From: Xestospongia bergquistia
Taxonomy: Eukaryota > Porifera > Demospongiae > Haplosclerida > Petrosiidae
DNA: 64,000 nucleotides
Assembly: GCA_963965975.1 (NCBI GenBank)
Contig: OZ014414.1
Location: forward strand, 4,563,501-4,627,500
Reading direction: 5' to 3'
The position numbers were made by a program, and so were the translations under genes. Positions 2,950 through 64,000 of the stretch are shown here, one piece after another. Each line of letters begins with the position of its first letter. The stretch's first letter is position 1. The notes beneath the pieces were generated by a model. The model saw nothing but the letters and a program-made list of their open reading frames with translations, had not been told where the DNA came from and searched no databases.

Positions 2950-3916
2950 GAGAAGTTTATAAAGTAAACTGCTCAATCTAAAGGAGTCGATGGCACTAAT
3001 TAAATAAACAGATATTAACAGTTTAGTAAGTTAGTTTGCATTAACGCTCTAAAGTCTTTAAGTTAAAGACTTTAGAAGGTTTAGACTATCGAGAGAAGTT
3101 TATAAAGTAAATTGTTCAGTCTAAAGGACTTTATGGCACTAAGTAAATGAACAGCTATTAACAGTTTAGTAAGTAAGTTTGCATTAACACTCTAAAGTCA
3201 TTAAGTGAAAGACTTTAGAAGGTTTAGACTATTGAGTGAATCTTACAAAATAAACTGGTCTGTCTAAAGGACTTTATGGCACTAACTAAATAAACAGCTA
3301 TTAACAGTTTAGTAAGTTAGTTTGCATTAACGCTCTAAAGTCTTTAAGTTAAAGACTTTAGAAGGTTTAGACTATTGAGAGAAGTTTATAAAGTAAACTG
3401 CTAAGTCTAAAGGAGTCGATGGCACTAACTAAATAAACAGCTATTAACAGTTTAGTAAGTTAGTTTGCATTAACGCTCTAAAGTCTTTAAGTTAAAGACT
3501 TTAGAAGGTTTAGACTATTGAGAGAAGTTTATAAGGTAAACTGTTCAGTCTAAAGGACTTTATGGCACTAAGTAAATGAACAGCTATTAACAGTTTAGTA
3601 AGTAAGTTTGCATTAACACTCTAAAGTCATTAAGTTAAAGACTTTAGAGGGTTTAGACTATTGAGTGAATCTTAATAAAATAAACTCCTCTGTCTAAAGG
3701 ACTTTATGGCACTATCTAAATAAAAAGCTATTAACAATTTAGTAAGTTAGTTTGCATTAACGCTCTAAAGTCTTTAAGTTAAAGACTTTAGAAGATTTAG
3801 ACTATTGAGAGAAGATTATAAAGTAAACCGTTCAGTCTAAAGGACTTTATGGCACTAACTAAATAAACAGCTATTAACAGTTTAGTAAGTAAGTTTCCAT
3901 TAACACTCTAAAGTCA

Positions 3917-6900
3917 TTAAGTTAAAGACTTTAGAAGGTTTAGACTATTGAGTGAATCTTACAAAATAAACTGCTCTGTCTAAAGGACTTTATGGCACTC
4001 ACTAAATAAACAGCTATTAACAGTTTAGTAAGTTAGTTTGCATTAACGCTCTAAAGTCTTTAAGTTGAAGACTTTAGAAGGTTTAGACTATTGAGAGAAG
4101 TTTGTAAAGTAAACTGCTCAGTCTAAAGGACTTTATGGCACTAACTAAATAAACAGCTATTAACAGTTTAGTAAGTTAGTTTGCAATAATGCTCTAAGGT
4201 CATTAAGTTAAAGACTTTAGAAGGTTTAGACTATTGAGTGACGCTTATAAAGTAAACTGGTCTCTCTAAAGGACTTTATGGCACTACCTAAATAAAGAGC
4301 TATTAACAGTTTAGTAAGTTATTTTGCATTAACGCTCTAAAGTCTTTAAGTTGAAGACTTGAGAAGGTTTAGACTATTGAGTGACGCTTATAAAGTAAAC
4401 TGGTCTCTCTAAAGGACTTTATGGCACTAACTAAATAAACAGCTATTAACAGTTTAGTAAGTTAGTTTGCAATAATGCTCTAAGGTCTTTAAGTTAAAGA
4501 CTTTAGAAAGTTTAGACTATTGAGAGAAGTTTATAAAGTAAACTGCTCAGTCTAAAGGACTTTATGGCACTAACTAAATAAAGAGCTATTAACAGTTTAG
4601 TAAGTTATTTTGCATTAACGCTCTAAAGTCTTTAAGTTGAAGACTTGAGAAGGTTTAGACTATTGAGTGACGCTTATAAAGTAAACTGGTCTCTCTAAAG
4701 GACTTTATGGCAATAACTAAATAAACAGCTATTAACAGTTTAGTAAGTTAGTTTGCATTAACGCTCTTAAATCTTTAAGTTAAAGAATTTAGAAAGATTA
4801 CACTATTGAGAGCAGTTTATAAAGTAAACTGCTCAGTCTAAAGGACTTTACGGCACTAACTAAATAAACAGCTATTAACAGTTTAGTAACTTAGTTTGCA
4901 TTAACGCTCTAAAGTCTTTAAGTTAAAGACTTTAGAAGGTTTAGACTATTGAGAGAAGTTTATAAAGTAAACTGCTCAGTCTAAAGGAGTTGATGGCACT
5001 AACTAAATAAACAGATATTAACAGTTTAGTAAGTTACTTTGCATTAACGCTCTAAAGTCTTTAAGGTAAAGACTTTAGAGGGTTTAGACTATTGAGAGAA
5101 GTTTATAAAGTAAAAAGCTCAGTCTAAAGGACTTTATGGCACTAACTGAATCAGCAGCTATTAACAGTTTAGTAAGTAAGTTTGCATTAACACTCTAAAC
5201 TCATTAAGTTAAAGACTTTAGAAGGTTTAGACTATTGAGTGAATCTTACAAAATGAACTGCTCTGTCGAAAGAACTTTATGGCACTAACTAAATAAACAG
5301 GTATTAACAGTTAAGTAAGTTAGTTTGCATTAATGCTCTAAACTCTTTAATTTAAAGACTTTAGAAGTTATAGACTATTGAGAGAATTTTATAAAGTAAA
5401 CAGCTCAGTCTAAAGGACTCTATGGCACTAACTAAATAAACAGCTATTAACAGTTTAGTAAGTTAGTTTTGCATTAACGCTCTAAAGTCTTTAAGTTAAT
5501 GACTTTAGAAGGTTTAGACTATTGAGAGAAGTTTATAAAGTAAACTGCTCAGTCTAAAGGAGTCGATGGCACTAACTAAATAAACAGCTATTAACAGTTT
5601 AGTAAGTTAGTTTGCATTAACGCTCTAAAGTCTTTAAGTTAAAGGCTTTAGATGGTTTAGACTATTGAGAGAAGTTTTTAAAGTAAACTGTTCAGTCTAA
5701 AGGACTTTATTTCACTAAGTAAATGAACAGCTATTAACAGTTTAGTAAGTAAGTTTGCATTAACACTCTAAACTCATTAAGTTAAAGACTTTAGAAGGTT
5801 TAGACTATTGAGTGAATCTTACAAAATAAACTCCTCTGTCTAAAGGACTTTATGGCACTAACTAAATAAACAGCTATTAACAGTTTAGTAAGTTAGTTTA
5901 CAATAACGCTCTAAGGTCTTTAAGTTAAAGACTTTAGAAGGTTTAGACTATTGAGTGACGCTTATAAAGTAAACTGGTCTCTCTAAAGGACTTTATGGAA
6001 CTAACTAAATAAACAGCTATTAAAAGTTTAGTAAGTTAGTTTGCATTAGCGCTCTAAAGTCTTTAAGTTAAAGACTTTAGAAGGTTTAGACTATTGAGTG
6101 AATCTTACAAAATAAACTGCTCTGTCTAAAGGACTTTATGGCACTCACTAAATAAACAGCTATTAACAGTTTAGTAAGTTAGTTTGCATTAACGCTCTAA
6201 AGTCTTTAAGTTGAAGACTTTAGAAGGTTTAGACTATTGAGAGAAGTTTGTAAAGTAAACTGCTCAGTCTAAAGGACTTTATGGCACTAACTAAATAAAC
6301 AGCTATTAACAGTTTAGTAAGTTAGTTTGCAATAATGCTCTAAGGTCATTAAGTTAAAGACTTTAGAAGGTTTAGACTATTGAGTGACGCTTATAAAGTA
6401 AACTGGTCTCTCTAAAGGACTTTATGGCACTACCTAAATAAAGAGCTATTAACAGTTTAGTAAGTTATTTTGCATTAACGCTCTAAAGTCTTTAAGTTGA
6501 AGACTTGAGAAGGTTTAGACTATTGAGTGACGCTTATAAAGTAAACTGGTCTCTCTAAAGGACTTTATGGCACTAACTAAATAAACAGCTATTAACAGTT
6601 TAGTAAGTTAGTTTGCAATAATGCTCTAAGGTCTTTAAGTTAAAGACTTTAGAAAGTTTAGACTATTGAGAGAAGTTTATAAAGTAAACTGCTCAGTCTA
6701 AAGGACTTTATGGCACTAACTAAATAAAGAGCTATTAACAGTTTAGTAAGTTATTTTGCATTAACGCTCTAAAGTCTTTAAGTTGAAGACTTGAGAAGGT
6801 TTAGACTATTGAGTGACGCTTATAAAGTAAACTGGTCTCTCTAAAGGACTTTATGGCAATAACTAAATAAACAGCTATTAACAGTTTAGTAAGTTAGTTT

Positions 6901-40175: not shown

Positions 40176-40267
40176 CATCAAGGCAAAGAGCAGAATATCA
40201 ATTGGCAACACTTCGGGTACGACGTCCTTTCCAGCAGTATTTTATTTGACAGCCTGTGAAGCATATA

Positions 40268-40327
40268 TATATGCGCGCCGCGATAAAGCGTATGGGGGCG
40301 TGGCGCATATTTATATGCGCGTCGCGA
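40268..40327 (-). repeat. GC-rich subterminal direct repeats (two 16-bp copies)
   Basis: TATATGCGCGCCGCGA (40268-40283) and TATATGCGCGTCGCGA (40312-40327) differ at one base. They are the most GC- and CpG-rich sequence in an AT-rich window, and the second abuts the terminal repeat. A transposase recognition site is a reasonable inference. Confidence 0.8.
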
Positions 40328-40335
40328 GTTAAGGG
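40323..40335 (+). repeat. Terminal inverted repeat, right end of piggyBac copy 2
   Basis: CGCGAGTTAAGGG, the transposase 5' side of the element. Its reverse complement CCCTTAACTCGCG matches the other end at 12 of 13 bases. Confidence 0.93.
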
Positions 40336-40339
40336 TTAA
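40336..40339. repeat. TTAA target-site duplication, right side of piggyBac copy 2
   Basis: TTAA follows GGG and leads into GTTAAGACTTTAGAAGG, the remainder of the interrupted satellite monomer. Confidence 0.95.
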
Positions 40340-42630: not shown

Positions 42631-42665
42631 TAAGTCTAAAGTTTAGTAAGTTAGTTTGCATTAAC
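42615..42665 (+). repeat. Rearrangement junction within the satellite
   Basis: CTATTGAGTC is followed by TAAGTCTAAAGTTTAGTAAG. It joins the middle of one monomer to the late part of another and loses roughly 70-80 bp of a unit. It marks the point where similarity to the left 2,252-bp block stops. Confidence 0.7.
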
Positions 42666-43003
42666 GCTCTAAAGTCTTTAAGTTAAACACTTTAGAAGGT
42701 TTAGACTATTGAGAGAAGTTTATAAAGTAAACTGCTCAGTCTAAAGGACTTTATGGCACTAACTAAATAAAAAGCTATTAACAGTTTAGTAAGTTAGTTT
42801 ACATTAACATTATAAAGTCTTTAAGTTAAAGACTTTAGAAGGTTTAGACTATTGAGCGAAGTTTATAAAGTAAACTGCTCAGTCTAAAGGACTTTATGGC
42901 ATAACTAAATAAACAGCTATTAACGGTTTAGTAAGTTGGTTTGCATTAACGCTCTAAAGTCTTTAAGTTGAAGACTTTAGAAGGTTTAGACTAATTACAG
43001 AAT
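42666..43003 (+). repeat. Forward satellite monomers between junction and inversion
   Basis: About 2.4 class A monomers. They share the variants ACATTAACATTATAAAG and GAGCGAAG with a stretch near 28150-28260. They end at GTTTAGACTAATTACAG, where orientation changes. Confidence 0.85.
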
Positions 43004-45968
43004 GTTAGCGTTTAGGCAAATTATCTTACTAAACTGTTAATAGCTGTTTATTTATTTAGTGCCATAAAGTCCTTTAGACTGAGCAGTTTACTTTATAAAC
43101 TTCACTCAATCGTCTAAACATTCTAAAGTCTTTAACTTATAGACTTTAGAGCGTTAAAGCAAAGTAACTTACTAAACTGTTAATAGCTGTTTATTTAGTT
43201 AGTGCCATAAAGTCCTTTAGACTGAGCAGTTTACTTCATAAACCTCTCTCAATAGTCTAAACCTTCTAAAGTCTTTAACTTAAAGACTTTAGAGCGTTAA
43301 TGCAAACTAGCTTACTAAACTCTTAATAGCTGTTTATTTAGTTAGTGCCATAAATTCCTTTAGAGAGAGCAGTTTACTTTATAAACTTCTCTCAATAGTC
43401 CAAACCTTCTAAAGTCTTTAACTTAAAGAGTTTAGAGCATTAAAGCAAACTAACTTACTAAACTGTTAATAGCTGTTTATTTAGTTAGTGCCATAAAGTC
43501 CTTTAGACTGAGCACTTTACTTTATAAGCGTCACTCAATAGTCTAAACCTTCTAAAGTCTTTAACTTAAAGACTTAAGAGCGTTAATGCAAACTAACTTA
43601 CTAAACTGTTAATAGCTGTTTATTTATTTAGTACCATAAAGTCCTTTAGACTGAGCAGTTTACTTTATAAACTTCTCTCAATAGTCTAAACCTTCTAAAG
43701 TCTTTAACTTAAAGACTTTAGAGCGTTAATGCAAACTAACTTACTAAACTGTTAATAGCTGTTTATTTAGTTAGTGCCATTAAGTCCTTTAGACTGAGCA
43801 GTTTACTTTATAAAATTCTATCAATAGTCTAAACCATCTAAAGTCTTTAACTTAAAGACTTTAGACCGTTAATGCAAACTAACTTACTAAACTGTTAATA
43901 GCTTTTTATTTAGTTAGTGCCATAAAGTTCTTTAGACAGAGCATTTTACTTTATAAGCGTCACTCAATAGTCTAAACCTTTTAAAGTCTTTAACTTAAAG
44001 ACTATAGAGCGTTAATGCAAACTAAGTTGCTAAACTGTTAATAGCTGTTTATTTAGTTAGTGCCATAAAGTCCTTTAGACTGATCAGTTTACTTCATAAA
44101 CGTCTCTCAATAGTCTAAACATTCTAAAGTCTTTAACTTAAATACTTTAGAGCGTTAATGCAAACTAACTTACTAAACTGTTAATAGCTGTTTATTTAGT
44201 TAGTGCCATAAATTCCTTTAGAGAGAGCAGTTTACTTTATAAACTTCTCTCAATAGTCTAATCCTTCTAAAGTCTTTAACTTAAAGACTTTAGAGCGTTA
44301 ATGCAAACTAACTTACTAAACTGTTAATAGCTGTTTATTTAGTTAGTGCCACAAAGTCCTTACGACAGAGCAGTTTACTTTATAAACATGTCTCAATAGT
44401 CTAAACCTTCTAAAGTCTTTAACTTAAAGACTTTAGAGCGTTAATGCAAACTAACTAAAGTGTTAATAGCTGTTTATTTAGTTAGTGCCATAAAGTCCTT
44501 TAGACTGAGCAATTTACTTTATAAACTTCTCTCAATAGTCTAAACCTTCTAAAGTCTTTAACTTAAAGACTTTAGAGCGTTAATGCAAACTAACTTACTA
44601 AACTGTTAATAGCTGTTTATTTAGTTAGTGCCATAAAGTCCTTTAGACAGAGCAGTTTATTTTGTAAGATTCACTCAATAGTCTAAACCTTCTAAAGTCC
44701 TTAACTTAATGACTTTAGAGTGTTAACGCAAACTTACTTACTAAACTGTTAATAGCTGTTTATATAGTTAGTGCCATAAAGTCCTTTAGACTCAGCAGTT
44801 TACTTTATAATCTTCTCTCAATAGTCTAAACTTTCTAAAGTCTTTAACTTAAAGACTTTAGAGCGTTAATGCAAACAAACTTACTAAACTGTTAATAGCA
44901 GTCCATTTAGTTAGTGCCATAAAGTCCTTTAGACTGAGCAGTTTACTTTGTAAAATTCTCTCAATAGGCTAAACCTTCTAAAGTCTTTAACTTAAAGACT
45001 TTAGAGCGTTAATGCAAACTAACTTACTAAACTGTTAATAGCTGTTTATTTAGTTAGTGCCATAAAGTCCTTTAGACAGAGCAGTTTATTTTGTAAGATT
45101 CACTCAATAGTCTGAACCTTCTAAAGTCTTTAACTTAATGACTTTAGAGTTTTAATGCAAAATTACTTACTAAACTATTAATAGCTGTTCATTTAGTTAG
45201 TGCCATAAACTCCTTTACACTTAGTAGTTTACTTTATAAACTTCTCTCAATAGTCTAAACCTTCTAAAGTCTTTAACTTAAAGACTTTAGGGCGTTAATG
45301 CAAACTAACTTACTAAACTGTTAATAGCTGTTTATTTAGTTAGTGCCATAAAGTCCTTTAGACTGAGCAGTTTACTTTATAAACTTCTCTCAATAGTCTA
45401 AGCCTTCTAAAGTCTTAAACTTAAAGACTTTAGAGCGTTAAAGCAAACTAACTTACAAAACTGTTAGTAGCTCTTTATTTAGTTAGTGACATAAAGTCCT
45501 TTAGACTGAGCAGGTTACTTTATAGAGTTCGTTCAATAATCTAAACCTTCTAAAGTCTTTAACTTAAAGACTTTATAGCGATAATGCAAACTAACTTACT
45601 AAACTGTTAATAGCTGTTTATTTAGTTAGTGCCATAAGGTCCTTTAGACTGAGCAGTTTACTTTATAAACTTCTCTCAATAGTCTAAAGCTTCTAAAGTC
45701 TTTAACTTAAAGACTTTAGAGTGTTAATGCAAACTAACTTACTAAGCTGTTAATAGCTGTTTATTTAGTTAGTGCCATAAAGTCCTTTAGACTGAGGAGT
45801 TTACTTTATAAACTTCTCTCAATAGTCTAAACCTTCTAAAGTCTTTAACTTAAAGACTTTAGAGCGATAATGCAAACTAACTTACTAAACTGTTAATTGC
45901 TGTTTATTTAGTTAGTGCCATAAAGTCCTTACGACTGAGCAGTTTACTTTATAAACATCTGTCAATAG
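43004..45968 (-). repeat. Inverted satellite block (2,965 bp, about 21 monomers)
   Basis: The monomer reads as its reverse complement throughout (landmarks GCAAACTAACTTACTAAAC, TAGTGCCATAAAGTCCTTT). Entry is through a degraded junction at about 42994-43020 and exit is at GTCAATAG|TTAAACACTTTAG. It includes class B and class C units, so a mixed segment was inverted or inserted in opposite orientation. No unrelated sequence is present at either edge. Confidence 0.93.
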
Positions 45969-48900
45969 TTAAACACTTTAGAAGGTTTAGACTATTGAGA
46001 GAAGTTTAAAATGTAAACTGCTCAGTCTAAAGGACTCTATGGCACTAACTAAATAAACAGCCATTAACAGTTTAGTAAGTTAGTTTGCATTAACGCTCTA
46101 AAGTCTTTAAGTTAAAGACTTTAAAAGGTTTAGACTATTGAGAGGAGTTTATAAAGTAAACTGCTCAGTCTAAAGGACTTTATGGCACTAACTAAATGAA
46201 CAGCTATTAACAGTTTAGTAAATAAGTTTGCATTGACACTCTAAAGTCATTAAGTTAAAGACTTTAGAAGGTTTAGACTATTGAGTGAATCTTACAAAAT
46301 AAAATGGTCTGTCTAAATGACTTTATGGCACTAACTAAATAAACAGCTATTAACAGTTAAGTAAGTTAGTTTGCATTAGTGCTCTAAAGTCTTTAAGTTA
46401 AAGACTTTAGAAGGTTTAGACTATTGAGAGAATTTTATAAAATAAAATGCTCAATCTAAAGGACTTTATGCCACTAACTAAATAAACAGGTATTAACAGT
46501 TTAGTAAGTTTGTTTGCATTAACACTCTAAAGTCTTTAAGTTAAAGACTTTAGAAGTTTAGACTATTGAGAGAACTTTATAAAGTAAACTGCTCAATCTA
46601 AAGGACTTTATGGCACTAACTAAATAAACAGCTATTAACAGTTTAGTAAGTTAGTTTGCATTAACGCTCTAAAGTCTTCATGTTAAAGACTTTAGAAGGA
46701 TTTAGACTATTGAGAGCAGTTTATAAAGTAAACTGCTCAGTCTAAAGGACTTTATGGCACTAACTGAATAAACAGCTATTAACAGTTTAGTAAGTTAGTT
46801 TGCATTAACGCTCTAAACTCTTTAAGTTAAAGACTTTAGAAGCTTTAGACTATTGAGAGAAGTTTATAAAGTAAACTGCTCAGTCTAAGGGACTTTATGG
46901 CACTAATTAAATAAACAGATATTAACAGTTTAGTAAGTTAGTTTGCATTAACGCTCTAACGTCTTTAAGTTAAAGACTTTAGAAGGTTTAGACTCTGGGA
47001 GTTTATAAAGTAAACTGCTCAGTCTAAAGGACTTTATGGCACTAACTAAATAAACAGCTATTAACAGTTTACTAAGTTAGTTTGTATTGACGCTCTAAAG
47101 TCTTTAAGTTAAAGACATTAGAAGGTTTAGACTATTGAGAGAAGTTTATAAAGTAAACTGCTCAGTCTAAAGGACTTTATGGCACTAACTAAATAAACAG
47201 CTATTAACAGTTTAGTAAGTTAGTTTGCATTAACGCTCTAAAGTCTTTAAGTTAAAGACTTTAGATTGTTTAGACTATTGAGAGAAGTTTATAAAGTAAA
47301 CTGCTCAGTCTAAAGGACTTTATGGCACTAACTAAATAAACAGCTATTAACAGTTTAGTAAGTTAGTTTGCATTAACGCTCTAAAGTCTTTAAGTTAAAG
47401 ACTTTAGAAGGTTTAGACTATTGAGAGAAGTTTATAATGTAAACTGCTCAGTTTAAAGGACTCTATGGCACTAACTAAATAAACAGCTATTAACAGTTTA
47501 GTAAGTTAGTTTGCATTAACGCTCTAAAGTCTTTAAGTTAAAGACATTAGAAGGTTAGACTATTGATAGAAGTTCATAAAGTAAACTGCTCAGTCTAAAG
47601 GACTTTATGGCACTAACTAAATGAACTGCTATTAACAGTTTAGTAAGTAAGTTTGCGTTAACACTCTAAAGTCATTAAGTTAAAGACTTTAGAAGGTTTA
47701 GACTATTGAGTGAATCTTACAAAATAAACTGCTCTGTCTAAAGGACTTTATGGCACTAACTAATTAAAAAGCTATTAACAGTTTAGTAAGTTAGTTTGCA
47801 TTAACGCTCTAAAGTCTTTAAGTTAAAGACTTTAGAAGGTTTAGACTATTGAGAGAATTTTATAAAATAAAATGCTCAATCTAAAGGACTTTATGGCACT
47901 AACTGAATAAACAGCTATTAACAGTTTAGTAAGTTAGTTTGCATTAACGCTCTTAAGTCTTTAAGTTAAAGACTTTAGATTGTTTAGACTATTGAGAGAA
48001 GTTTATAAAGTAAACTGCTCAGTCTAAAGGACTTTATGGCACTAACTAAATAAACAGCTATTAACAGTTTAGTAAGTTAGTTTGCATTAATGCTCTAAAG
48101 TCTTTAAGTTAAACACTTTAGAAGGTTTAGACTATTGAGAGAAGTTTAAAATGTAAACTGCTCAGTCTAAAGGACTTTATGGCACTAACTAAATAAACAG
48201 CTATTAACAGTTTAGTAAGTTAGTTTGCATTAACGCTCTAAAGTCTTTAAGTTAAAGACATTAGAAGGTTTAGACTATTGAGAGAAGTTCATAAAGTAAA
48301 CTGCTCAGTCTAAAGGACTTTATGGCACTAACTAAATGAACAGCTATTAACAGTTTAGTAAGTAAGTTTGCATTGACACTCTAAAGTCATTAAGTTAAAG
48401 ACTTTAGAAGGTTTAGACTATTGAGTGAATATTACAAGATAAACTGGTCTGTCTAAAGGACTTTATGGCACTAACTAAATAAACAGCTATTAACAGTTTA
48501 GTAAGTTAGTTTGCATTAACGCTCTAAAGTCTTTAAGTTAAAGACTTTAAAAGGTTTAGACTATTGAGAGGAGTTTATAAAGTAAACTGCTCAGTCTAAA
48601 GGACTTTATGGCACTAACTAAATGAACAGCTATTAACAGTTTAGTAAGTAAGTTTGCATTGACACTCTAAAGTCATTAAGTTAAAGACTTTAGAAGGTTT
48701 AGACAATTGAGTGAATCTTACAAAATAAACTGGTCTGTCTAAAGGACTTTATGGCACTAACTAAATAAACAGCTATTAACAGTTTAGTAAGTTAGTTTGC
48801 ATAGTGCTCTAATGTCTTTAAGTTAAAGACTTTAGAAGGTTTAGACTATTGAGAGAATTTTATAAAATAAAATGCTCAGTCTAAAGGACTCTATGCCACT

Positions 48901-51839
48901 AACTAAATAAACAGGTATTAACAGTTTAGTAAGTTAGTTTGCATTAACGCTCTAAAGTCTTTAAGTTAAAGACTTTAGAAGTTTAGACTATTGAGAGAAC
49001 TTTATAAAGTAAACTGCTCAATCTAAAGGACTTTATGGCACTAACTAAATAAACAGCTATTAACAGTTTAGTAAGTTAGTTTGCATTAACGCTGTAAAGT
49101 CTTCATGTTAAAGACTTTAGAAGGTTTAGACTATTGAGAGCAGTTTATAAAGTAAACTGCTCAGTCTAAAGGACTTTATGGCACTAACTGAATAAACAGC
49201 TATTAACAGTTTAGTAAGTTAGTTTGCATTAACGCTCTAAAGTCTTAAGTTAAAGACATTAGAAGCTTTAGACTGTTGAGAGAAGTTTATAAAGTAAACT
49301 GCTCAGTCTAAGGGACTTTATGGCACTAATTAAATAAACAGATATTAACAGTTTAGTAAGTTAGTTCGCATTAACGCTCTAAAGCCTTTAAGTTAAAGAC
49401 TTTAGAAGGTTTAGACTCTTGAGAGTTTATAAAGTAAACTGCTCAGTCTAAAGGACTTTATGGAACTAACCAAATAAACAGCTATTAACAGTTTAGTAAG
49501 TTAGTTTGCATTAACGCTCTAAAGTCTTTAAGTTAAAGACTTTAGATTGTGTAGACTATTGAGAGAAGTTTATAAAGTAAACTGCTCACTCTAAAGGACT
49601 TTATGGCACTAACTAAATAAACAGCTATTAACAGTTTAGTAAGTTAGTTTGCATTAACGCTCTTAAGTCTTTAAGTTAAAGACTTTAGATTGTTTAGACT
49701 ATTGAGAGAATTTTATAAAGTAAACTGCTCAGTCTAAAGGACTTTATGGCACTAACTAAATAAACAGCTATTAACAGTTTAGTAAGTTAGTTTGCATTAA
49801 CGCTCTAAAGTCTTTAAGATAAACACTTTAGAAGGTTTAGACTATTGAGAGAAGTTTAAAATGTAAACTGCTCACTCTAAAGGACTCTATGGCACTAACT
49901 AAATAAACAGCTATTAACAGTTTAGTAAGTTAGTTTGCATTAACGCTCTAAAGTCTTTAAGTTAAAGACATTAGAAGGTTTAGACTATTGAGAGAAGTTC
50001 ATAAAGTAAACTGCTCAGTCTAAAGGACTTTATGGCACTAACTAAATGAACAGCTATTAACAGTTTAGTAAGTAAGTTTGCATTGACACTCTAAAGTCAT
50101 TAAGTTAAAGACTTTAGAAGGTTTAGACTATTGAGTGAATCTTACAAAATAAACTGGTCTGTCTAAAGGACTTTATGGCACTAACTAAATAAACAGCTAT
50201 TAACAGTTTAGTAAGTTAGTTTGCATTAATGCTCTAAAGTCTTTAAGTTAAGACTTTAGAAGGTTTAGACTATTGAGAGAATTTTATAAAATAAAATGCT
50301 CAGTCTAAAGGACTTTATGCCACTAACTAAATAAACAGGTATTAACAGTTTAGTAAGTTAGTTTGCATTAACACTCTAAAGTCTTTAAGTTAAAGACTTT
50401 AGAAGTTTAGACTATTGAGAGAACTTTATAAAGTAAACTGCTCAATCTAAAGGACTTTATGGCACTAACTAAATAAACAGCTATTAACAGTTTAGTAAGT
50501 TAGTTTGCATTAACGCACTAAAGTCTTCATGTTAAAGACTTTAGAAGGATTTAGACTATTGAGAGCAGTTTATAAAGTAAACTGCTCAGTCTAAAGGACT
50601 TTATGGCACTAACTGAATAAACAGCTATTAACAGTTTAGTAAGTTAGTTTGCATTAACGCTCTAAAGTCTTTAAGTTAAAGACTTTAGAAGCTTTAGACT
50701 ATTGAGAGAAGTTTATAAAGTAAACTGCTCAGTCTAAGGGACTTTATGGCACTAATTAAATAAACAGATATTAACAGTTTAGTAAGTTAGTTTGCATTAA
50801 CGCTCTAACGTCTTTAAGTTAAAGACTTTAGAAGGTTTAGACTCTGGGAGTTTATAAAGTAAACTGCTCAGTCTAAAGGACTTTATGGCACTAACTAAAT
50901 AAACAGCTATTAACAGTTTACTAAGTTAGTTTGTATTGACGCTCTAAAGTCTTTAAGTTAAAGACATTAGAAGGTTTAGACTATTGAGAGAAGTTTATAA
51001 AGTAAACTGCTCAGTCTAAAGGACTTTATGGCACTAACTAAATAAACAGCTATTAACAGTTTAGTAAGTTAGTTTGCATTAACGCTCTAAAGTCTTTAAG
51101 TTAAAGACTTTAGATTGTTTAGACTATTGAGAGAAGTTTATAATGTAAACTGCTCAGTCTAAAGGACTCTATGGCACTAACTAGATAAACAGCTATTAAC
51201 AGTTTAGTAAGTTAGTTTGCATTAACGCTCTAAAGTCTTTAAGTTAAAGACATTAGAAGGTTAGACTATTGATAGAAGTTCATAAAGTAAACTGCTCAGT
51301 CTAAAGGACTTTATGGCACTAACTAAATGAACTGCTATTAACAGTTTAGTAAGTAAGTTTGCGTTAACACTCTAAAGTCATTAAGTTAAAGACTTTAGAA
51401 GGTTTAGACTATTGAGTGAATCTTACAAAATAAACTGCTCTGTCTAAAGGACTTTATGGCACTAACTAATTAAAAAGCTATTAACAGTTTAGTAAGTTAG
51501 TTTGCATTAACGCTCTAAAGTCTTTAAGTTAAAGACTTTAGAATGTTTAGACTATTGAGAGAATTTTATAAAGAAAACTGCTCAGTCTAAAGGACTCTAT
51601 GGCACTAACTAAATAAACAGCTATTAACAGTTTAGTAAGTTAGTTTGCATTAGCGCTATAAAGTCTTTAAGTTAAAGACTTTAGAAAGTTTAGACTATTG
51701 AGAGAAGTTTATAAAGTAAACTGCTCAGTCTAAAGGACTTTATGGCACTAACTAAATAAAAAGCTATTAACAGTTTAGTAAGTAAGTTTGCATTAACACT
51801 CTAAAGTCATTAAGTTAAAGACGTTAGAAGGTTTAGACT

Positions 51840-54800
51840 ATTGAGTGAATCGTACAAAATAAACTGCTCTGTCTAAAGGACTTCAAGGCACTAACTAAAT
51901 AAACAGCTAATAACAGTTTAGTAAGTTAGTTTGCATTAATGCTCTAAAGTCTTTAAGTTAAAGATTTTAGAAGGTTTAGACTATTGAGAGAAGTTTATAA
52001 AGTAAACTGCTCAGTATAAAGGACTTTATGGCACTAAATAAATAAACAGCTATTAACAGTTTAGTAAGTTAGTTTGCATTAACACTCTAAAGTCTTTAAG
52101 TTAAAGACTTTAGAAGTTTTAGACTATTGAGAGAACTTTATAAAGTAAACTGCTCAGTCTAAAGGACTTTATGGCACTAACTAAATAAACAGCTATTAAC
52201 AGTTTAGTAAGTTAGTTTGCATTAACGCTCTAAAGTCTTTAAGTTAAAGACTTTAGAAGGTTTAAATTATTGAGAGAAGTTTATAAAGTAAGCTGCTCAG
52301 TCTAAAGGACTTTATGGCAATAACTAAATAAACAGCTATTAACAGTTTAGTAAGTTAGTTTGCATTAACGCTCGAAGGTCTTTAAGTTAAAGACTTTAGA
52401 AGGTTTAGACTATTGAGTGACGCTTATAAAGTAAACTGCTCAGTCTAAAGGACTTTATGGCACTAACTAAATAAACAGCTATTAACAGTTTAGTAAGTTA
52501 GTTTGCATTAACGCTCTAAGGTCTTTAAGTTAAAGACTTTACATTGTTTAGACTATTGAGTGACGCTTATAAAGTAAACTGGTCTCTCTAAAGGACTATA
52601 TGGCACTAACTAAATAAACAGCTATTAACATTTTATTAATTTAGTTTGAATTAACGCTCTAAAGTCTTTAAGTTAAAGACTTTAGAGGGTTTAGACTATT
52701 GAGAGAAGTTTATAAAGTAAACTGCTCAGTCTAAAGGACTTTATGGCACTAAGTTAATAAACAGCTATTAACAGTTTAGTAAGTTAGCTTGCATTAACGC
52801 TCTAAAGTCTTTAACTTATTGACTTTAGAAGGTTTAGACCATTGAGAGAAGTTTATACAGTAAACAGCTCAGTCTAAAGGACTTTATGGCACTATCTAAA
52901 TAAACAACTACTAACAGTTTAGTAAGCTAGTTTGCATTAATGCTCTAAAGTCTTTAAGTTAAAGACTTTAGAAGGTTTAGACTATTGAGAGAAGTTAGTA
53001 AAGTAAACTCCTCAGTCTAAAGGACCTTATGGCACTAACTAAATAAACAGCTATTAACAGTTTAGTAAGTTAGTTTGCATTAACGCTCTAAAGTCTTTAA
53101 GTTAAAGACTTTAGAAGGTTTAGATTATTGAGCGAACTTTATAAAGTAACCTGCTCAGTCTAAAGGACTTTATGGCACTAACTAAATAAACAGCTATTAA
53201 CAGTTTTGTAAGTTAGTTTGCTTTAACGCTCTAAAGACTTTCAGTTAAAGACTTTAGAAGGCTTAGACTATAGAGAGAAGTTTATAAAGTAAACTGCTCA
53301 GTCTAAAGGACTTTATGGCACTAACTAAATAAACAGCTATTAACATTTTAGTAAGTTAGTTTGCATTAACGCTCTAAAGTCTTTAAGTTAAAGACTTTAG
53401 ACGGTTTAGACTATTGAGAGAAGTTTATAAAGTAAACTGCTCAGTCTAAAGGACTTTATGGCACTAACTAAATAAACAACTATTAACAGTTTAGTAAGTT
53501 AGTATGCATTAACGCTCTAAAGTCTTTAATTTAAAGACTTTAGAAGGTTTAGACTATTGAGAGAAGTTTATAAAGTAAACTGCTCAGTCTAAAGGACTCT
53601 ATGACACTAACTAAATAAACAGCCATTAACAGTTTAGTAAGTTAGTTTGCATTAACGCTCTAAAGTCTTTAAGTTAAAGACTTTAGAAGGTTTAGACTAT
53701 TGAGTGAATCTTACAAAATAAACTGCTCTGTCTAAAGGACTTCAAGGCACTAACTAAATAAACAGCTAATAACAGTTTAGTAAGATAGTTTGCATTAATG
53801 CTCTAAAGTCTTTAAGTTAAAGATTTTAGAAGGTTTAGACTATTGAGAGAAGTTTATAAAGTAAACTGCTCAGTCTAAAGGACTTTATGGCACTAACTAA
53901 ATAAACAGCTATTAACAGTTTAGTAAGTTAGTTTGCATTAACGCTCTAAAGTCTTTAAGTTAAAGACTTTAGAAGTTTTAGACTATTGAGAGAACTTTAT
54001 AAAGTAAACTGCTCAGTCTAAAGGACTTTATGGCACTAACTAAATAAACAGCTATTAACAGTTTAGTAAGTTAGTTTGCATTAACGCTCTAAAGTCTTTA
54101 AGTTAAAGACTTTAGAAGGTTTAAACTATTGAGAGAAGTTTATAAAGTAAGCTGCTCAGTTTAAAGGACTTTATGGCAATAACTAAATAAACAGCTATTA
54201 ACAGTTTAGTAAGTTTGTTTGCATTAACGCTCGAAGGTCTTTAAGTTAAAGACTTTAGAAAGTTTAGACTATTGAGTGACGCTTATAAAGTAAACTGCTC
54301 AGTCTAAAGGACTTTAAGGCACTAACTAAATAAACAGCAATTAACAGTTTAGTAAGTTAGTTTGCATTAACGCTCTAAGGTCTTTAAGTTAAAGACTTTA
54401 CATTGTTTAGACTATTGAGTGACGCTTATAAAGTAAACTGGTCTCTCTAAAGGACTATATGGCACTAACTAAATAAACAGCTATTAACATTTTATTAATT
54501 TAGTTTGAATTAACGCTCTAAAGTCTTTAAGTTAAAGACTTTAGAGGGTTTAGACTATTGAGAGAAGTTTATAAAGTAAACTACTCAGTCTAAAGGACTT
54601 TATGGCACTAAGTTAATAAACAGCTATTAACAGTTTAGTAAGTTAGCTTGCATTAACGCTCTAAAGTCTTTAACTTATTGACTTTAGAAGGTTTAGACCA
54701 TTGAGAGAAGTAAACAGCTCAGTCTAAAGGACTTTATGGCACTATCTAAATAAACAACTACTAACAGTTTAGTAAGCTAGTTTGCATTAACGCTCTAAAG

Positions 54801-55310
54801 TCTTTAAGTTAAAGACTTTAGAAGGTTTGGACTATTGAGAGAAGTTAGTAAAGTAAACTGCTCAGTCTAAAGGACCTTATGGCACTAACTAAATAAACAG
54901 CTATTAACAGTTTAGTAAGTTAGTTTGCATTAACGCTCTAAAGTCTTTAAGTTAAAGACTTTAGAAGGTTTAGATTATTGAGCGAACTTTATAAAGTAAC
55001 CTGCTCAGTCTAAAGGACTTTATGGCACTAACTAAATAAACAGCTATTAACAGTTTTGTAAGTTAGTTTGCTTTAACGCTCTAAAGCCTTTCAGTTAAAG
55101 ACTTTAGAAGGCTTAGACTATAGAGAGAAGTTTATAAAGTAAACTGCTCAGTCTAAAGGACTTTATGGCACTAACTAAATAAACAGCTATTAACAGTTTA
55201 GTAAGTTAGTTTGCATTAACGCTCTAAAGTCTTTAAGTTAAAGACTTTAGACGGTTTAGACTATTGAGAGAAGTTTATAAAGTAAACTGCTCAGTCTAAA
55301 GGACTTTATA
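51840..55310 (+). repeat. Tandem higher-order repeat: two copies of a 1,859-bp (13-monomer) block
   Basis: TTCAAGG is at 51882 and 53741, and GGACTATATGG at 52590 and 54449. Both give an offset of 1,859, exactly 13 x 143. The block also carries ATTAATTTAGTTTGAATTAA, CTTATTGACTTT and GAGCGAACTTTATAAAG variants in order. Copy 2 has a 14-nt deletion near 54710. Confidence 0.87.
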
Positions 55311-55439
55311 GCACTAACTAAATAAACGGCTGTTATAGTTTAGTAAGTAAGTTTGCATTAACACTCTAAAGTCATTAAGTTAAAGACTTTAGAGAGTTTA
55401 GACTATTGAGAGAAGTTTATAAAGTAAACTGCTCAGTCT

Positions 55440-58400
55440 AAAGGACTTTACGGCGCTAAGTTAATAAACAGCTATTAACAGTTTAGTAAGTTAGTTTGCA
55501 TTAACGCTCTAAAGTCTTTAAGTTAAAGACTTTAGAAGGTTTAGACTATTGAGAGATGTTTATAAAGTAAACTGCTCAGTCGTAAGGACTTTATTGCACT
55601 AACTAAATAAACAGCTATTAACAGTTTAGTAAGTTAGTTTGCATTAACGCTCTAAAGTCATTAAGTTATTGACTTTAAAAGGGTTAGACTATTGAGAGAA
55701 GTTTATACAGTAAACAGCTCAGTCTAAAGGACTTTATGGCACTGTCTAAATAAACAACTACTAACAGTTTAGTAATTTAGTTTGCATTAACGCTCTAAAG
55801 TCTTTAAGTTAAAGACTTTAGAAGGTTTAGACTATTGAGAGAGGTTTATAAAGTAAACTGCTCAGTCTAAAGGACTCTATGGCACTAACTAAATAAACAG
55901 CTATTAACAGTTTAGTAAGTTAGTTTGCATTAACGCTATAAAGTCTTTAAGTTAAAGACTTTAGAAGCTTTAGACTATTGAGAGAAGTTTATAAAGTAAA
56001 CTGCTCAGTCTAAAGGACTTTATGGCACTAACTAAATAAACAGCTATTAACAGTTTAGTAAGTTAGTTTGCATTAACGCTCTAAAGTCTTTAAGTTAAAG
56101 ACTTTAGAATGTTTAGAGTATTGAGAGAAGTTTATAAATTAAACTGCTCAGTCTAAAGGACTCTATGACACTTACTAAATAAGCAGACATTGACAGTTTA
56201 GTAAGTTAGTTTGCATTAACGCTCTAAAGTCTTTAAGTTAAAGACTTTAGAAGGTTTAGACTATTGAGAGAAGTTTATAAAGTAAACTACTAAGTGTAAA
56301 GGACTTTATGGCACTAACTAAATGAACAGCTATTAATAGTTTAGTAAGTAAGTTTGCATTAACACTCTAAAGTCATTAAGTTAAAGACTTTAGAGGGTTT
56401 AGGCAATTCAGAGAAGTTTATAAAGTAAACTGCTCAGTCTAAAGGACTTTATGGCACTAACTAAATAAACAGCTATTAACAGTTTAGTAAGTTAGTTTGC
56501 ATTAACGCTCTAAAGTCTTTAAGTTAAAGACTTTAGAAGGTTTAGACTATTTAGAGAAGTTTACAAAGTAAACAACTCAGTCTAAAGGAGTCTATGACAC
56601 TAACTAAATAAACAGCCATTAACAGTTCAGTAAGTTAGTTTGCATTAACGCTCTAAAGTCTTTAAGTTAAACACTTTAGAAGGTTTAGACTATTGAGAGA
56701 AGTTTATAAAGTAAACTACTAAGTATAAAGTAAACTGCTCAGTCTAAAGGACTTTATGGCACTAACTAAATGAACAGCTATTAACAGTTTAGTAAGTAAG
56801 TTTGCATTGACACTCTAAAGTCATTAAGTTAAAGACTTTAGAAGGTTTAGACTATTGAGTGAATCTTACAAAATAAACTGGTCTGTCTAAAGGACTTTAT
56901 GGCACTAACTAAATAAACAGCTATTAACAGTTTAGTAAGTTAGTTTGCATTAGTGCTCTAAAGTCTTTAAGTTAAAGACTTTAGAAGGTTTAGACTATTG
57001 AGAGAATTTTATAAAATAAAATGCTCAGTCTAAAGGACTCTATGCCACTAACTAAATAAACAGGTATTAACAGTTTAGTAAGTTAGTTTGCATTAACGCT
57101 CTAAAGTCTTTAAGTTAAAGACTTTAGAAGTTTAGACTATTGAGAGAACTTTATAAAGTAAACTGCTCAATCTAAAGGACTTTATGGCACTAACTAAATA
57201 AACAGCTATTAACAGTTTAGTAAGTTAGTTTGCATTAACGCTGTAAAGTCTTCATGTTAAAGACTTTAGAAGGTTTAGACTATTGAGAGCAGTTTATAAA
57301 GTAAACTGCTCAGTCTAAAGGACTTTATGGCACTAACTGAATAAACAGCTATTAACAGTTTAGTAAGTTAGTTTGCATTAACGCTCTAAAGTCTTAAGTT
57401 AAAGACTTTAGAAGCTTTAGACTATTGAGAGAAGTTTATAAAGTAAACTGCTCAGTCTAAGGGACTTTATGGCACTAATTAAATAAACAGATATTAACAG
57501 TTTAGTAAGTTAGTTCGCATTAACGCTCTAAAGTCTTTAAGTTAAAGACTTTAGAAGGTTTAGACTCTTGAGAGTTTATAAAGTAAACTGCTCAGTCTAA
57601 AGGACTTTATGGAACTAACTAAATAAACAGCTATTAACAGTTTAGTAAGTTAGTTTGCATTGACGCTCTAAAGTCTTTCAGTTAAGGACATTAGAAGGTT
57701 TAGACTATTGAGAGAAGTTTATAAAGTAGACTGCTCAGTCTAAAGGACTTTATGGCACTAACTAAATAAACAGCTATTAACAGTTTAGTAAGTTAGTTTG
57801 CATTAACGCTCTAAAGTCTTTAAGTTAAAGACTTTAGATTGTTTAGACTATTGAGAGAAGTTTATAAAGTAAACTGCTCACTCTAAAGGACTTTATGGCA
57901 CTAACTAAATAAACAGCTATTAACAGTTTAGTAAGTTAGTTTGCATTAACGCTCTTAAGTCTTTAAGTTAAAGACTTTAGATTGTTTAGACTATTGAGAG
58001 AATTTTATAAAGTAAACTGCTCAGTCTAAAGGACTTTATGGCACTAACTAAATAAGCAGCTATTAACAGTTTAGTAAGTTAGTTAGCATTAACGCTCTAA
58101 AGCCTTTAAGATAAACACTTTAGAAGGTTTAGACTATTGAGAGAAGTTTAAAATGTAAACTGCTCACTCTAAAGGACTCTATGGCACTAACTAAATAAAC
58201 AGCTATTAACAGTTTAGTAAGTTAGTTTGCATTAACGCTCTAAAGTCTTTAAGTTAAAGACATTAGAAGGTTTAGACTATTGAGAGAAGTTCATAAAGTA
58301 AACTGCTCAGTCTAAAGGACTTTATGGCACTAACTAAATGAACAGCTATTAACAGTTTAGTAAGTAAGTTTGCATTGACACTCTAAAGTCATTAAGTTAA

Positions 58401-61400
58401 AGACTTTAGAAGGTTTAGACTATTGAGTGAATCTTACAAAATAAACTGGTCTGTCTAAAGGACTTTATGGCACTAACTAAATAAACAGCTATTAACAGTT
58501 TTGTAAGTTAGTTTGCATTAATGCTCTAAAGTCTTTAAGTTAAGACTTTAGAAGTTTTAGACTATTGAGAGAATTTTATAAAATAAAATGCTCAGTCTAA
58601 AGGACTTTATAGCACTAACTAAATAAACGGCTGTTATAGTTTAGTAAGTAAGTTTGCATTAACACTCTAAAGTCATTAAGTTAAAGACTTTAGAGAGTTT
58701 AGACTATTGAGAGAAGTTTATAAAGTAAACTGCTCAGTCTAAAGGACTTTACGGCGCTAAGTTAATAAACAGCTGTTAACAGTTTAGTAAGTTAGTTTGC
58801 ATTAACGCTCTAAAGTCTTTAAGTTAAAGACTTTAGAAGGTTTAGACTATTGAGAGAAGTTTATAAAGTAAACTGCTCAGTCTAAAGGACTTTATAGCAC
58901 TAACTAAATAAACGGCTGTTATAGTTTAGTAAGTAAGTTTGCATTAACACTCTAAAGTCATTAAGTTAAAGACTTTAGAGAGTTTAGACTATTGAGAGAA
59001 GTTTATAAAGTAAACTGCTCAGTCTAAAGGACTTTACGGCGCTAAGTTAATAAACAGCTATTAACAGTTTAGTAAGTTAGTTTGCATTAACGCTCTAAAG
59101 TCTTTAAGTTAAAGACTTTAGAAGGTTTAGACTATTGAGAGATGTTTATAAAGTAAACTGCTCAGTCGTAAGGACTTTATGGCACTAACTAAATAAACAG
59201 CTATTAACAGTTTAGTAAGTTAGTTTGCATTAACGCTCTAAAGTCTTTAAGTTATTGACTTTAAAAGGGTTAGACTATTGAGAGAAGTTTATACAGTAAA
59301 CAGCTCAGTCTAAAGGACTTTATGGCACTGTCTAAATAAACAACTACTAACAGTTTAGTAATTTAGTTTGCATTAACGCTCTAAAGTCTTTAAGTTAAAG
59401 ACTTTAGAAGGTTTAGACTATTGAGAGAGGTTTATAAAGTAAACTGCTCAGTCTAAAGGACTCTATGGCACTAACTAAATAAACAGCTATTAACAGTTTA
59501 GTAAGTTAGTTTGCATTAACGCTCTAAAGTCTTTAAGTTAAAGACTTTAGAAGCTTTAGACTATTGAGAGAAGTTTATAAAGTAAACTGCTCAGTCTAAA
59601 GGACTTTATGGCACTAACTAAATAAACAGCTATTAACAGTTTAGTAAGTTAGTTTGCATTAACGCTCTAAAGTCTTTAAGTTAAAGACTTTAGACGGTTT
59701 AGACTATTGAGAGAAGTTTATAAAGTAAACTGCTCAGTCTAAAGGACTTTACGGCGCTAAGTTAATAAACAGCTATTAACAGTTTAGTAAGTTAGTTTGC
59801 ATTAACGCTCTAAAGTCTTTAAGTTAAAGACTTTAGAAGGTTTAGACTATTGAGAGATGTTTATAAAGTAAACTGCTCAGTCGTAAGGACTTTATGGCAC
59901 TAACTAAATAAACAGCTATTAACAGTTTAGTAAGTTAGTTTGCATTAACGCTCTAAAGTCTTTAAGTTATTGACTTTAAAAGGGTTAGACTATTGAGAGA
60001 AGTTTATACAGTAAACAGCTCAGTCTAAAGGACTTTATGGCACTGTCTAAATAAACAACTACTAACAGTTTAGTAATTTAGTTTGCATTAACGCTCTAAA
60101 GTCTTTAAGTTAAAGACTTTAGAAGGTTTAGACTATTGAGAGAGGTTTATAAAGTAAACTGCTCAGTCTAAAGGACTCTATGGCACTAACTAAATAAACA
60201 GCTATTAACAGTTTAGTAAGTTAGTTTGCATTAACGCTCTAAAGTCTTTAAGTTAAAGACTTTAGAAGCTTTAGACTATTGAGAGAAGTTTATAAAGTAA
60301 ACTGCTCAGTCTAAAGGACTTTATGGCACTAACTAAATAAACAGCTATTAACAGTTTAGTAAGTTAGTTTGCATTAACGCTCTAAAGTCTTTAAGTTAAA
60401 GACTTTAGAATGTTTAGAGTATTGAGAGAAGTTTATAAATTAAACTGCTCAGTCTAAAGGACTCTATGACACTTACTAAATAAACAGACATTGACAGTTT
60501 AGTAAGTTAGTTTGCATTAACGCTCTAAAGTCTTTAAGTTAAAGACTTTAGAAGGTTTAGACTATTGAGAGAAGTTTATAAAGTAAACTACTAAGTGTAA
60601 AGGACTTTATGGCACTAACTAAATGAACAGCTATTAATAGTTTAGTAAGTAAGTTTGCATTAACACTCTAAAGTCATTAAGTTAAAGACTTTAGAGGGTT
60701 TAGGCAATTCAGAGAAGTTTATAAAGTAAACTGCTCAGTCTAAAGGACTTTATGGCACTAACTAAATAAACAGCTATTAACAGTTTAGTAAGTTAGTTTG
60801 CATTAACGCTCTAAAGTCATTAAGTTAAAGACTTTAGAAGGTTTAGACTATTGAGAGAAGTTTACAAAGTAAACAACTCAGTCTAAAGGAGTCTATGACA
60901 CTAACTAAATAAACAGCCATTAACAGTTCAGTAAGTTAGTTTGCATTAACGCTCTAAAGTCTTTAAGTTAAACACTTTTGAAGGTTTAGACTATTGAGAG
61001 AAGTTTATAAAGTAAACTACTAAGTATAAAGTAAACTGCTCAGTCTAAAGGACTTTATGGCACTAACTAAATGAACAGCTATTAACAGTTTAGTAAGTAA
61101 GTTTGCATTGACACTCTAAAGTCATTAAGTTAAAGACTTTAGAAGGTTTAGACTATTGAGTGAATCTTACAAAATAAACTGGTCTGTCTAAAGGACTTTA
61201 TGGCACTAACTAAATAAACAGCTATTAACAGTTTAGTAAGTTAGTTTGCATTAGTGCTCTAAAGTCTTTAAGTTAAAGACTTTAGAAGGTTTAGACTATT
61301 GAGAGAATTTTATAAAATAAAATGCTCAGTCTAAAGGACTCTATGCCACTAACTAAATAAACAGGTATTAACAGTTTAGTAAGTTAGTTTGCATTAACGC

Positions 61401-62900
61401 TCTAAAGTCTTTAAGTTAAAGACTTTAGAAGTTTAGACTATTGAGAGAACTTTATAAAGTAAACTGCTCAATCTAAAGGACTTTATGGCACTAACTAAAT
61501 AAACAGCTATTAACAGTTTAGTAAGTTAGTTTGCATTAACGCTGTAAAGTCTTCATGTTAAAGACTTTAGAAGGTTTAGACTATTGAGAGCAGTTTATAA
61601 AGTAAACTGCTCAGTCTAAAGGACTTTATGGCACTAACTGAATAAACAGCTATTAACAGTTTAGTAAGTTAGTTTGCATTAACGCTCTAAAGTCTTAAGT
61701 TAAAGACTTTAGAAGCTTTAGACTATTGAGAGAAGTTTATAAAGTAAACTGCTCAGTCTAAGGGACTTTATGGCACTAATTAAATAAACAGATATTAACA
61801 GTTTAGTAAGTTAGTTCGCATTAACGCTCTAAAGTCTTTAAGTTAAAGACTTTAGAAGGTTTAGACTCTTGAGAGTTTATAAAGTAAACTGCTCAGTCTA
61901 AAGGACTTTATGGAACTAACTAAATAAACAGCTATTAACAGTTTAGTAAGTTAGTTTGCATTGACGCTCTAAAGTCTTTCAGTTAAGGACATTAGAAGGT
62001 TTAGACTATTGAGAGAAGTTTATAAAGTAGACTGCTCAGTCTAAAGGACTTTATGGCACTAACTAAATAAACAGCTATTAACAGTTTAGTAAGTTAGTTT
62101 GCATTAACGCTCTAAAGTCTTTAAGTTAAAGACTTTAGATTGTTTAGACTATTGAGAGAAGTTTATAAAGTAAACTGCTCACTCTAAAGGACTTTATGGC
62201 ACTAACTAAATAAACAGCTATTAACAGTTTAGTAAGTTAGTTTGCATTAACGCTCTTAAGTCTTTAAGTTAAAGACTTTAGATTGTTTAGACTATTGAGA
62301 GAATTTTATAAAGTAAACTGCTCAGTCTAAAGGACTTTATGGCACTAACTAAATAAACAGCTATTAACAGTTTAGTAAGTTAGTTAGCATTAACGCTCTA
62401 AAGTCTTTAAGATAAACACTTTAGAAGGTTTAGACTATTGAGAGAAGTTTAAAATGTAAACTGCTCACTCTAAAGGACTCTATGGCACTAACTAAATAAA
62501 CAGCTATTAACAGTTTAGTAAGTTAGTTTGCATTAACGCTCTAAAGTCTTTAAGTTAAAGACATTAGAAGGTTTAGACTATTGAGAGAAGTTCATAAAGT
62601 AAACTGCTCAGTCTAAAGGACTTTATGGCACTAACTAAATGAACAGCTATTAACAGTTTAGTAAGTAAGTTTGCATTGACACTCTAAAGTCATTAAGTTA
62701 AAGACTTTAGAAGGTTTAGACTATTGAGTGAATCTTACAAAATAAACTGGTCTGTCTAAAGGACTTTATGGCACTAACTAAATAAACAGCTATTAACAGT
62801 TTTGTAAGTTAGTTTGCATTAATGCTCTAAAGTCTTTAAGTTAAGACTTTAGAAGGTTTAGACTATTGAGAGAATTTTATAAAATAAAATGCTCAGTCTA
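55440..62900 (+). repeat. Higher-order repeat with ~4,300-bp offset (about 30 monomers)
   Basis: CGGCGCTAAGTTAATAAAC is at about 55451 and 59750, CAGTCGTAAGGAC near 55578 and 59879, and TATGCC at 57041 and 61342. An unusual short duplication (ACTACTAAGTATAAAGTAAAC) is near 56709 and 61017. Similarity covers about 55440-58600 and 59740-62900. The intervening 58600-59740 is itself a partial re-duplication of the block's first units. Confidence 0.8.
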
Positions 62901-64000
62901 AAGGACTTTATGCCACTAACTAAATAAACAGGTATTAACAGTTTAGTAAGTTAGTTTGCATTAACACTCTAAAGTCTTTAAGTTAAAGACTTTAGAAGTT
63001 TAGACTATTGAGAGAACTTTATAAAGTAAACTGCTCAATCTAAAGGACTTTATGGCACTAACTAAATAAACAGCTATTAACAGTTTAGTAAGTTAGTTTG
63101 CATTAACGCTCTAAAGTCTTCATGTTAAAGACTTTAGAAGGATTTAGACTATTGAGAGCAGTTTATAAAGTAAACTGCTCAGTCTAAAGGACTTTATGGC
63201 ACTAACTGAATAAACAGCTATTAACAGTTTAGTAAGTTAGTTTGCATTAACGCTCTAAAGTCTTTAAGTTAAAGACTTTAGAAGCTTTAGACTATTGAGA
63301 GAAGTTTATAAAGTAAACTGCTCAGTCTAAGGGACTTTATGGCACTAATTAAATAAACAGATATTAACAGTTTAGTAAGTTAGTTTGCATTAACGCTCTA
63401 ACGTCTTTAAGTTAAAGACTTTAGAAGGTTTAGACTCTGGGAGTTTATAAAGTAAACTGCTCAGTCTAAAGACTTTATGGCACTAACTAAATAAACAGCT
63501 ATTAACAGTTTACTAAGTTAGTTTGTATTGACGCTCTAAAGTCTTTAAGTTAAAGACATTAGAAGGTTTAGACTATTGAGAGAAGTTTATAAAGTAAACT
63601 GCTCAGTCTAAAGGACTTTATGGCACTAACTAAATAAACAGCTATTAACAGTTTAGTAAGTTAGTTTGCATTAACGCTCTAAAGTCTTTAAGTTAAAGAC
63701 TTTAGATTGTTTAGACTATTGAGAGAAGTTTATAATGTAAACTGCTCAGTCTAAAGGACTCTATGGCACTAACTAAATAAACAGCTATTAACAGTTTAGT
63801 AAGTTAGTTTGCATTAACGCTCTAAAGTCTTTAAGTTAAAGACATTAGAAGGTTAGACTATTGATAGAAGTTCATAAAGTAAACTGCTCAGTCTAAAGGA
63901 CTTTATGGCACTAACTAAATGAACTGCTATTAACAGTTTAGTAAGTAAGTTTGCGTTAACACTCTAAAGTCATTAAGTTAAAGACTTTAGAAGGTTTAGA

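Follow-up and report, generated by a model that had tools for sequence, protein, structure and literature searches.

A probable (peri)centromeric satellite of the demosponge Xestospongia bergquistia carrying a palindrome on which its arrays may reverse

Reversal of satellite arrays on the D1 axis

The stretch of DNA analyzed here (the window) comprises 64,000 nucleotides of the demosponge Xestospongia bergquistia (assembly GCA_963965975.1, contig OZ014414.1, here C4:4563501-4627500) and contains about 57 kb of a tandem satellite with a 143-bp unit. Having followed this satellite through the genome (146,460,797 bases in 21 contigs, 15 of which are of chromosome size, 28.2 to 5.4 Mb), we consider it reasonably probable that it is a demosponge (peri)centromeric satellite, forming an internal block on each chromosome, and that D1, a palindrome within its unit, and less clearly a second dyad, D3, is a strand-switching site at which macro-dyads, i.e., kilobase inverted sub-arrays, are built.

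The unit at 27171-27313 of the window (plus strand) is identical to the consensus of family A, one of two families of units, and its positions define columns 1-143. All three dyads of the original prediction are present in it, two of them as first described: D2, a nested imperfect dyad in columns 35-80 (35-42 pairing with 73-80 and, inside, 52-57 with 63-68; 27205-27250, plus strand), and D3, with 15-nt arms in columns 93-107 and 119-133 that pair at 13 of 15 positions (27263-27303, plus strand). D1 is slightly larger than first thought, a 29-nt palindrome in columns 3-31 rather than 4-30, with 14-nt arms around one unpaired base (27173-27201, plus strand). The final unit alignments were made with strict scores, because with loose scoring D1 caused spurious pieces to align on the minus strand; since the plus-strand alignment crossed a piggyBac insert, rows below 75% identity were removed, which left 1046 of 1099 complete rows and 812 distinct units.

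A genome-wide search for inverted copies of an upstream sequence, used as anchors and lying 20-50 nt apart, returned eight places, six of which are satellite (on C2, C4, C8, C10, C11, and C13). In all six, the gap is exactly 35, corresponding to a head-to-head turn on the D1 axis; a random switch would fall exactly on this axis with a probability of about 1e-9, given the searched range. The head-to-head turn at D1 is thus common to six of six satellite places found in this way, while other junctions lie off the axis. At five of these loci the plus and minus alignments meet on columns 3-31, although L060 has just 155 bases of minus side. The six turning points look independent because their flanks share no unit order: within five units of the turn in either direction, similarity is no higher in register than out of it (41 comparisons, mean difference -0.0001). 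When flanks were compared with all units of a locus, in-register values were higher for pairs involving L060 or the L057 minus side, the more distant units there being degenerate. Head-to-head turns at D1 or a little beyond it, with a 34-nt overlap, are also seen at two further loci, L029 and L030.

Conversely, no tail-to-tail turn at D1 was detected in two genome searches with two anchor pairs. The second of these returned 18 places (36 rows), all with a spacing of 44 nt, which corresponds to units of the same orientation; a symmetric turn needs 53 nt.

Reversals were also found at D3. Sixteen places, 15 of them satellite, have gaps of 212-242 (the D3 zone). Three of these, on C4, resemble one another and have the D3 axis as their exact head-to-head turning point; five on C14 likewise form a set of similar places. 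Among the seven others, five were read, partly by eye, together with one of the C14 set (the remaining two overlap on C9 at 5.18 Mb). C8:4526952 turns head-to-head on D3 with a 59-nt overlap, and C8:4933527 and C9:5142102 turn within D3 but are shortened, the D3 center being lost. A tail-to-tail search of the D3 zone gave two places, C2:12320720, which turns exactly on the D3 axis, and a micro-inversion on C12; in addition, L029 has a further tail-to-tail turn close to D3. In the D2 zone (gaps 100-130), the widest by chance, only two places were found, one of them the C12 micro-inversion. The resulting zone counts (six D1, two D2, and up to eight D3) compare with random proportions of 0.17 : 0.55 : 0.28, the probability of at least six D1 turns being 0.043 and that of at most two D2 turns 0.0005. 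The zone count is modest evidence by itself; the exact D1 axis is the strong part.

These observations could be explained as follows. At a broken or stalled replication fork, single-stranded DNA would fold back on a dyad, or anneal to another copy of it, and synthesis would go on along the opposite strand, so that the array reverses on the dyad axis. Such reversal would give rise to macro-dyads. Kilobase sub-arrays of opposite orientation are seen at 43007-45974 of the window and at L055-L058, where they extend for 1.5 kb or more in both directions. If one strand were favored, fold-back or template switching at D1 would produce only head-to-head junctions, and the return turns would originate elsewhere, at D3 or through short shared sequences. 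In the window, the plus and minus alignments overlap by 8 nt of shared sequence at 45967-45974. More tentatively, and with some doubt, D1 may program reversal at every centromere, a directional head-to-head fold-back during replication generating macro-dyads in convergence with the beetle Tribolium; if so, dyad symmetry at the level of the unit generates dyad symmetry at the level of the array.

A number of observations weigh against strand switching at D1 and D3. The mirror-image arms that fold-back predicts were seen at only one of four testable loci, L056 (0.965 at a one-unit shift versus 0.906), and are lacking at L055, L057, and L058; for these three, switching to a distant unit or later turnover must be invoked. 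Three of the four distinct turning points of the window (43002-43007, 45967-45974, and 36416-36419) lie off every dyad axis, as do the turns at L066/L067 and, judged by eye, the left turn of L059, a short double turn. The D3-zone places on C5, C12, and C14 turn elsewhere than at D3 (read partly by eye). Columns 37-42 and 121-126 of family A equal D1 in conservation, so that D1 is the lowest in variability among the dyads but not across the unit. Furthermore, 68% of the null space lies beyond the three searched gap ranges, and mutated units escape exact anchors. It is also possible that errors in the assembly of repeats lie behind turning points.

The remaining turning point of the window, within D3, is head-to-head, with plus and minus alignments that overlap (36240-36254, plus strand). 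A similar one starts at 42268, and was found in the genome search at C4:4605666 (window 42166-42410).

Conservation and predicted folding of the dyads

D1 may be retained through protein binding or through folding. Of the three dyads, D1 has the arms that vary least (3.3% versus 10.1% for unpaired columns, p 0.005), and the difference is also seen within family A (3.5 versus 5.1%, p 0.045) and within family B (2.8 versus 5.1%, p 0.021); D2 of family A differs by rank (p 0.036) without having a lower mean. The two families differ at 10 columns, none of which is in the D1 arms (26 columns), as would occur by chance with p 0.125. Overall, the evidence for D1 conservation is moderate. It would fit a role of D1 as the binding site of a protein dimer, corresponding in function to the CENP-B box, in which case the symmetry would reflect the dimer, with folding and turning points as side effects. 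We regard this as possible, if rather unlikely: neither a protein nor a matching motif was identified, and an exact turning axis requires the symmetry itself.

Family B accounts for most of the sampled units of C1 and C2, plus locus L033 on C3, and family A for those of C4, C6, and C13; 65 of the 812 distinct units are intermediate, including six of nine from C14. This grouping by chromosome, with C14 mostly intermediate, resembles suprachromosomal families.

The original prediction proposed that the unit be folded on both strands and compared with shuffled monomers. Using DNA parameters, the consensus unit folds at -26.5 (plus) and -25.6 (minus) kcal/mol, with z-scores of -5.19 and -5.28, and none of 200 dinucleotide shuffles folded as well on either strand, a result that bears out the expectation of strong folding (z about -5.2). 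The same is true of both families, as none of 1000 shuffles matched the whole unit of either A or B, and 64 of 80 randomly chosen real units had a z-score below -2. Nor does this depend on D1 only: columns 32-143, with D1 removed, were matched by none of 500 shuffles and, in another run, by two of 1000. The hairpins of family A are D1 and D2, the latter being significant only in this family, while D3 alone was matched by 67 of 1000 shuffles and is not significant. In family B, D3 alone was matched by two of 1000 shuffles, D2 alone is non-significant (90 of 1000), and D1 is also drawn in the predicted fold. Thus, D1 is a common core, strong in both families, to which family A adds D2 and family B adds D3.

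These predictions raise the question of whether the dyads are extruded in vivo, forming hairpins or cruciforms that attract the CenH3 chaperone, so that non-B DNA would mark the centromere. Besides the strong predicted folding of both strands and of most sampled units, this reading could draw on a centromere-like location, and on the slightly lower folding energy of real units compared with column-resampled ones (mean of 300 units -19.02 versus -18.42 kcal/mol for 600 resampled), although the latter is a weak result (p 0.025). It is also consistent with the absence of CENP-B-box-like sites from the repeats, which had been part of the original prediction and holds: the five window matches at no more than two mismatches are all within piggyBac elements, while 13.3 would be expected by chance. 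Covariation, however, speaks against it. Compensatory double changes in 45 pairs numbered 61 among the 812 distinct units, versus 56.8 expected by independence, and the ratio of 1.07 falls within the spread of controls in which the partner was slid by one to four columns in both directions (0.55-2.18). The excess of stem-pair covariation that had been suggested as a test was therefore not seen. Similarly, five of the 10 differences between the families fall on paired columns; four break a pair and one gives G.T, and none is compensated, leaving pairs of D2 and D3 broken. Because base-pair covariation is absent, the three-hairpin cloverleaf drawn in the original prediction is not a conserved shape; it applies to family A, with D3 as its weak part, but family B folds with other hairpins, without compensation. 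That the structure as a whole is kept by compensation is not supported, and we consider marking of the centromere by non-B DNA unlikely.

Less probable still is plain inversion through recombination between two copies of D1 that are mutual inverted repeats. This would account for exact D1 junctions with unlike arms, but it predicts that tail-to-tail and head-to-head junctions are equally frequent at D1. Six head-to-head junctions and no tail-to-tail one were seen (p 0.003 with the second anchor pair, taking the six as independent), despite the tail-to-tail anchors being better conserved (846 and 725, versus 664 for head-to-head, of 1046 units). Least probable is an ordinary satellite whose dyads arose by chance in AT-rich DNA and have no function, a view compatible with the missing covariation and the off-axis turning points of the window but not with the shuffling results for either family or the excess of turns on the D1 axis.

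Chromosomal location and a candidate centromeric histone

Returning to the proposed (peri)centromeric satellite with strand switching at D1, we determined where the satellite lies. It is present, internally, on all 15 chromosome-size contigs. An exact pattern search for the 29-nt D1 with a central G gave 6826 genome matches (4638 + 2188), and the backward control gave none. This pattern under-detects family B, in which the central base of D1 is A or T, and match signs on C1 and C2 were therefore not taken as orientation. Listings of the 29-mer are complete for C1-C3, and it is for these contigs that confinement to a single block was fully followed: the matches lie at 18.39-18.68 Mb on C1, 12.28-12.83 Mb on C2, and 4.15-4.69 Mb on C3, spanning 0.30 of 28.2 Mb, 0.56 of 16.1 Mb, and 0.54 of 11.5 Mb, respectively. 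Beyond these, the satellite occurs on C4 (the window), C6, C13, C14, C8, C10, C11, C9, C12, C5, C7, and C15. Targeted probes contained it in eight of eight cases on C5, one of six on C7, and three of six (one partial) on C15; it was missing from other probes (two on C5 and single ones on C6, C7-C12, and C15) and from the initial 1500 bases of C19-C21. As the window has 150 exact 29-mers (140 + 10) for 398 kept units, the 6826 copies would imply about 18,000 units making up 1.8% of the genome, with family B under-counted.

A search of the genome for histones gave 13 matches, of which six loci (seven matches) were read. By eye, these include H3.3-like (C12), H2A.Z-like (C1), H2B-like (C13), and H2A-like (C14) histones; the locus at C7:8066151 encodes an H3. 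The gene at C7:7990076-7990429 (minus strand, locus L102) is a CenH3 candidate, predicted to encode a divergent H3 with a divergent tail that is 47% identical to the H3 at C7:8066151. Its best PDB hits are three chains labeled cnp1, cnp1, and CSE4 (95.7, 95.5, and 94.1 bits), with canonical H3s close behind (92.8). A longer loop 1 is a mark of CenH3, and the candidate has three extra loop 1 residues relative to the genome's own H3.

The satellite forms a long tandem array of units of roughly nucleosome size (143 bp), as is typical of centromeric satellites. Since all 15 chromosome-size contigs carry it internally and the genome has a CenH3-like histone gene, we read it as (peri)centromeric. 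The centromere interpretation of the original prediction is partly supported: by folding, the lack of a CENP-B box in the window repeats, and now location and the CenH3-like gene, but not by covariation. We infer both centromere function and the fold-back step from sequence.

Relatives of the piggyBac elements (on C5, C6, C10, C11, and C13) and one turning point (on C14) recur at intervals of about 65-210 kb, mostly 110-170 kb. This recurrence of like elements along contigs suggests that entire satellite blocks are repeated in tandem as mega-repeats.

Comparison with known systems

Macro-dyad organization has been described for the Tribolium satellites TmSat1 and TmSat2, and the authors state that such symmetries had been documented in Tribolium alone (PMC13081366). 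The sponge satellite shares with them abundance on all chromosomes, in regions that in the sponge are probably (peri)centromeric, and kilobase changes of orientation; it may also share preferred turning sites. It differs in belonging to another phylum, in being a single satellite in two families, and in that the role of turning site falls to a palindrome present in each unit, not to a special diverged one. Dyad-rich centromeric DNA without CENP-B boxes is also known (Kasinathan and Henikoff 2018, described in PMC8997354; also PMC9070824). As far as these accounts go, the sponge repeats are similar in their hairpin-predicted dyads, lack of a CENP-B box, and centromere-like place, but the dyads there are shorter than 10 bp while the D1 arms have 14 nt, and those of the sponge are known from sequence alone. 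Human alpha-satellite is tandem and carries the CENP-B box; as outlined in PMC8997354, it likewise has units of near-nucleosome size and families common to several chromosomes, whereas the sponge window has no CENP-B-box-like site and no simple higher-order repeat, only block duplications.

A literature search of limited coverage found no paper on centromeric satellite DNA of Porifera or demosponges, or on the chromosomes of X. bergquistia. Set against the work cited above, what appears to be new is a palindrome in each unit as turning axis, and this in a sponge, macro-dyads as such being known from Tribolium. If correct, our reading would provide a candidate sponge centromere sequence and a named candidate CenH3 gene, and would make a role of dyads or non-B DNA in centromere specification testable in an early-branching animal. 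It would also link unit-level palindromes to array-level reversal through a mechanism for which long-read assemblies offer a check.

Organization of the window

Tandem Repeats Finder (TRF) reports one array of period 143 at 2949-64000, and the unit alignment shows that 2946-64000 is satellite throughout except for one piggyBac insert. The alignment yielded 398 complete units (all 143 columns, identity at least 75%), in agreement with the earlier estimate of about 400. The continuous array first assumed for 2950-64000 holds in so far as the period-143 satellite is concerned, but 36712-40335 is a piggyBac element, and the orientation is reversed at 43007-45974 and in two short pieces. The array thus consists of plus-strand satellite at 2946-36711 (TRF and unit alignment), which includes a short inverted piece at 36240-36419, and at 40336-43002 (unit alignment), which includes a similar piece at about 42268-42447; an inverted segment of about 21 units at 43007-45974 (minus strand, unit alignment); and plus-strand satellite at 45967-64000 (TRF and unit alignment), continuing past the end of the window. 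Similarity between units is flat with lag (0.92), so no simple higher-order repeat is present in the window; blocks are duplicated, however, most commonly at lags of 30, 15, and 24 units. A 162-bp unit containing a 19-bp duplication occurs at both 56565-56879 and 60866-61180, 4301 bp apart, and marks the duplication of a block some 30 units long. An Rfam scan of the window gave no match at gathering score.

The piggyBac element at 36712-40335 is inserted in the TTAA of D1 and has TTAA on both sides. Positions 1-2945 represent part of another copy, oppositely oriented and likewise at a satellite TTAA site; the two copies are 97.5% identical over 2990 aligned positions. Among the best five piggyBac copies examined, four, including both window copies, are in satellite (L031-L034). 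Finally, contig C21 is 18,997 bases long, and its start contains, by eye, organelle-like tRNA and rRNA.

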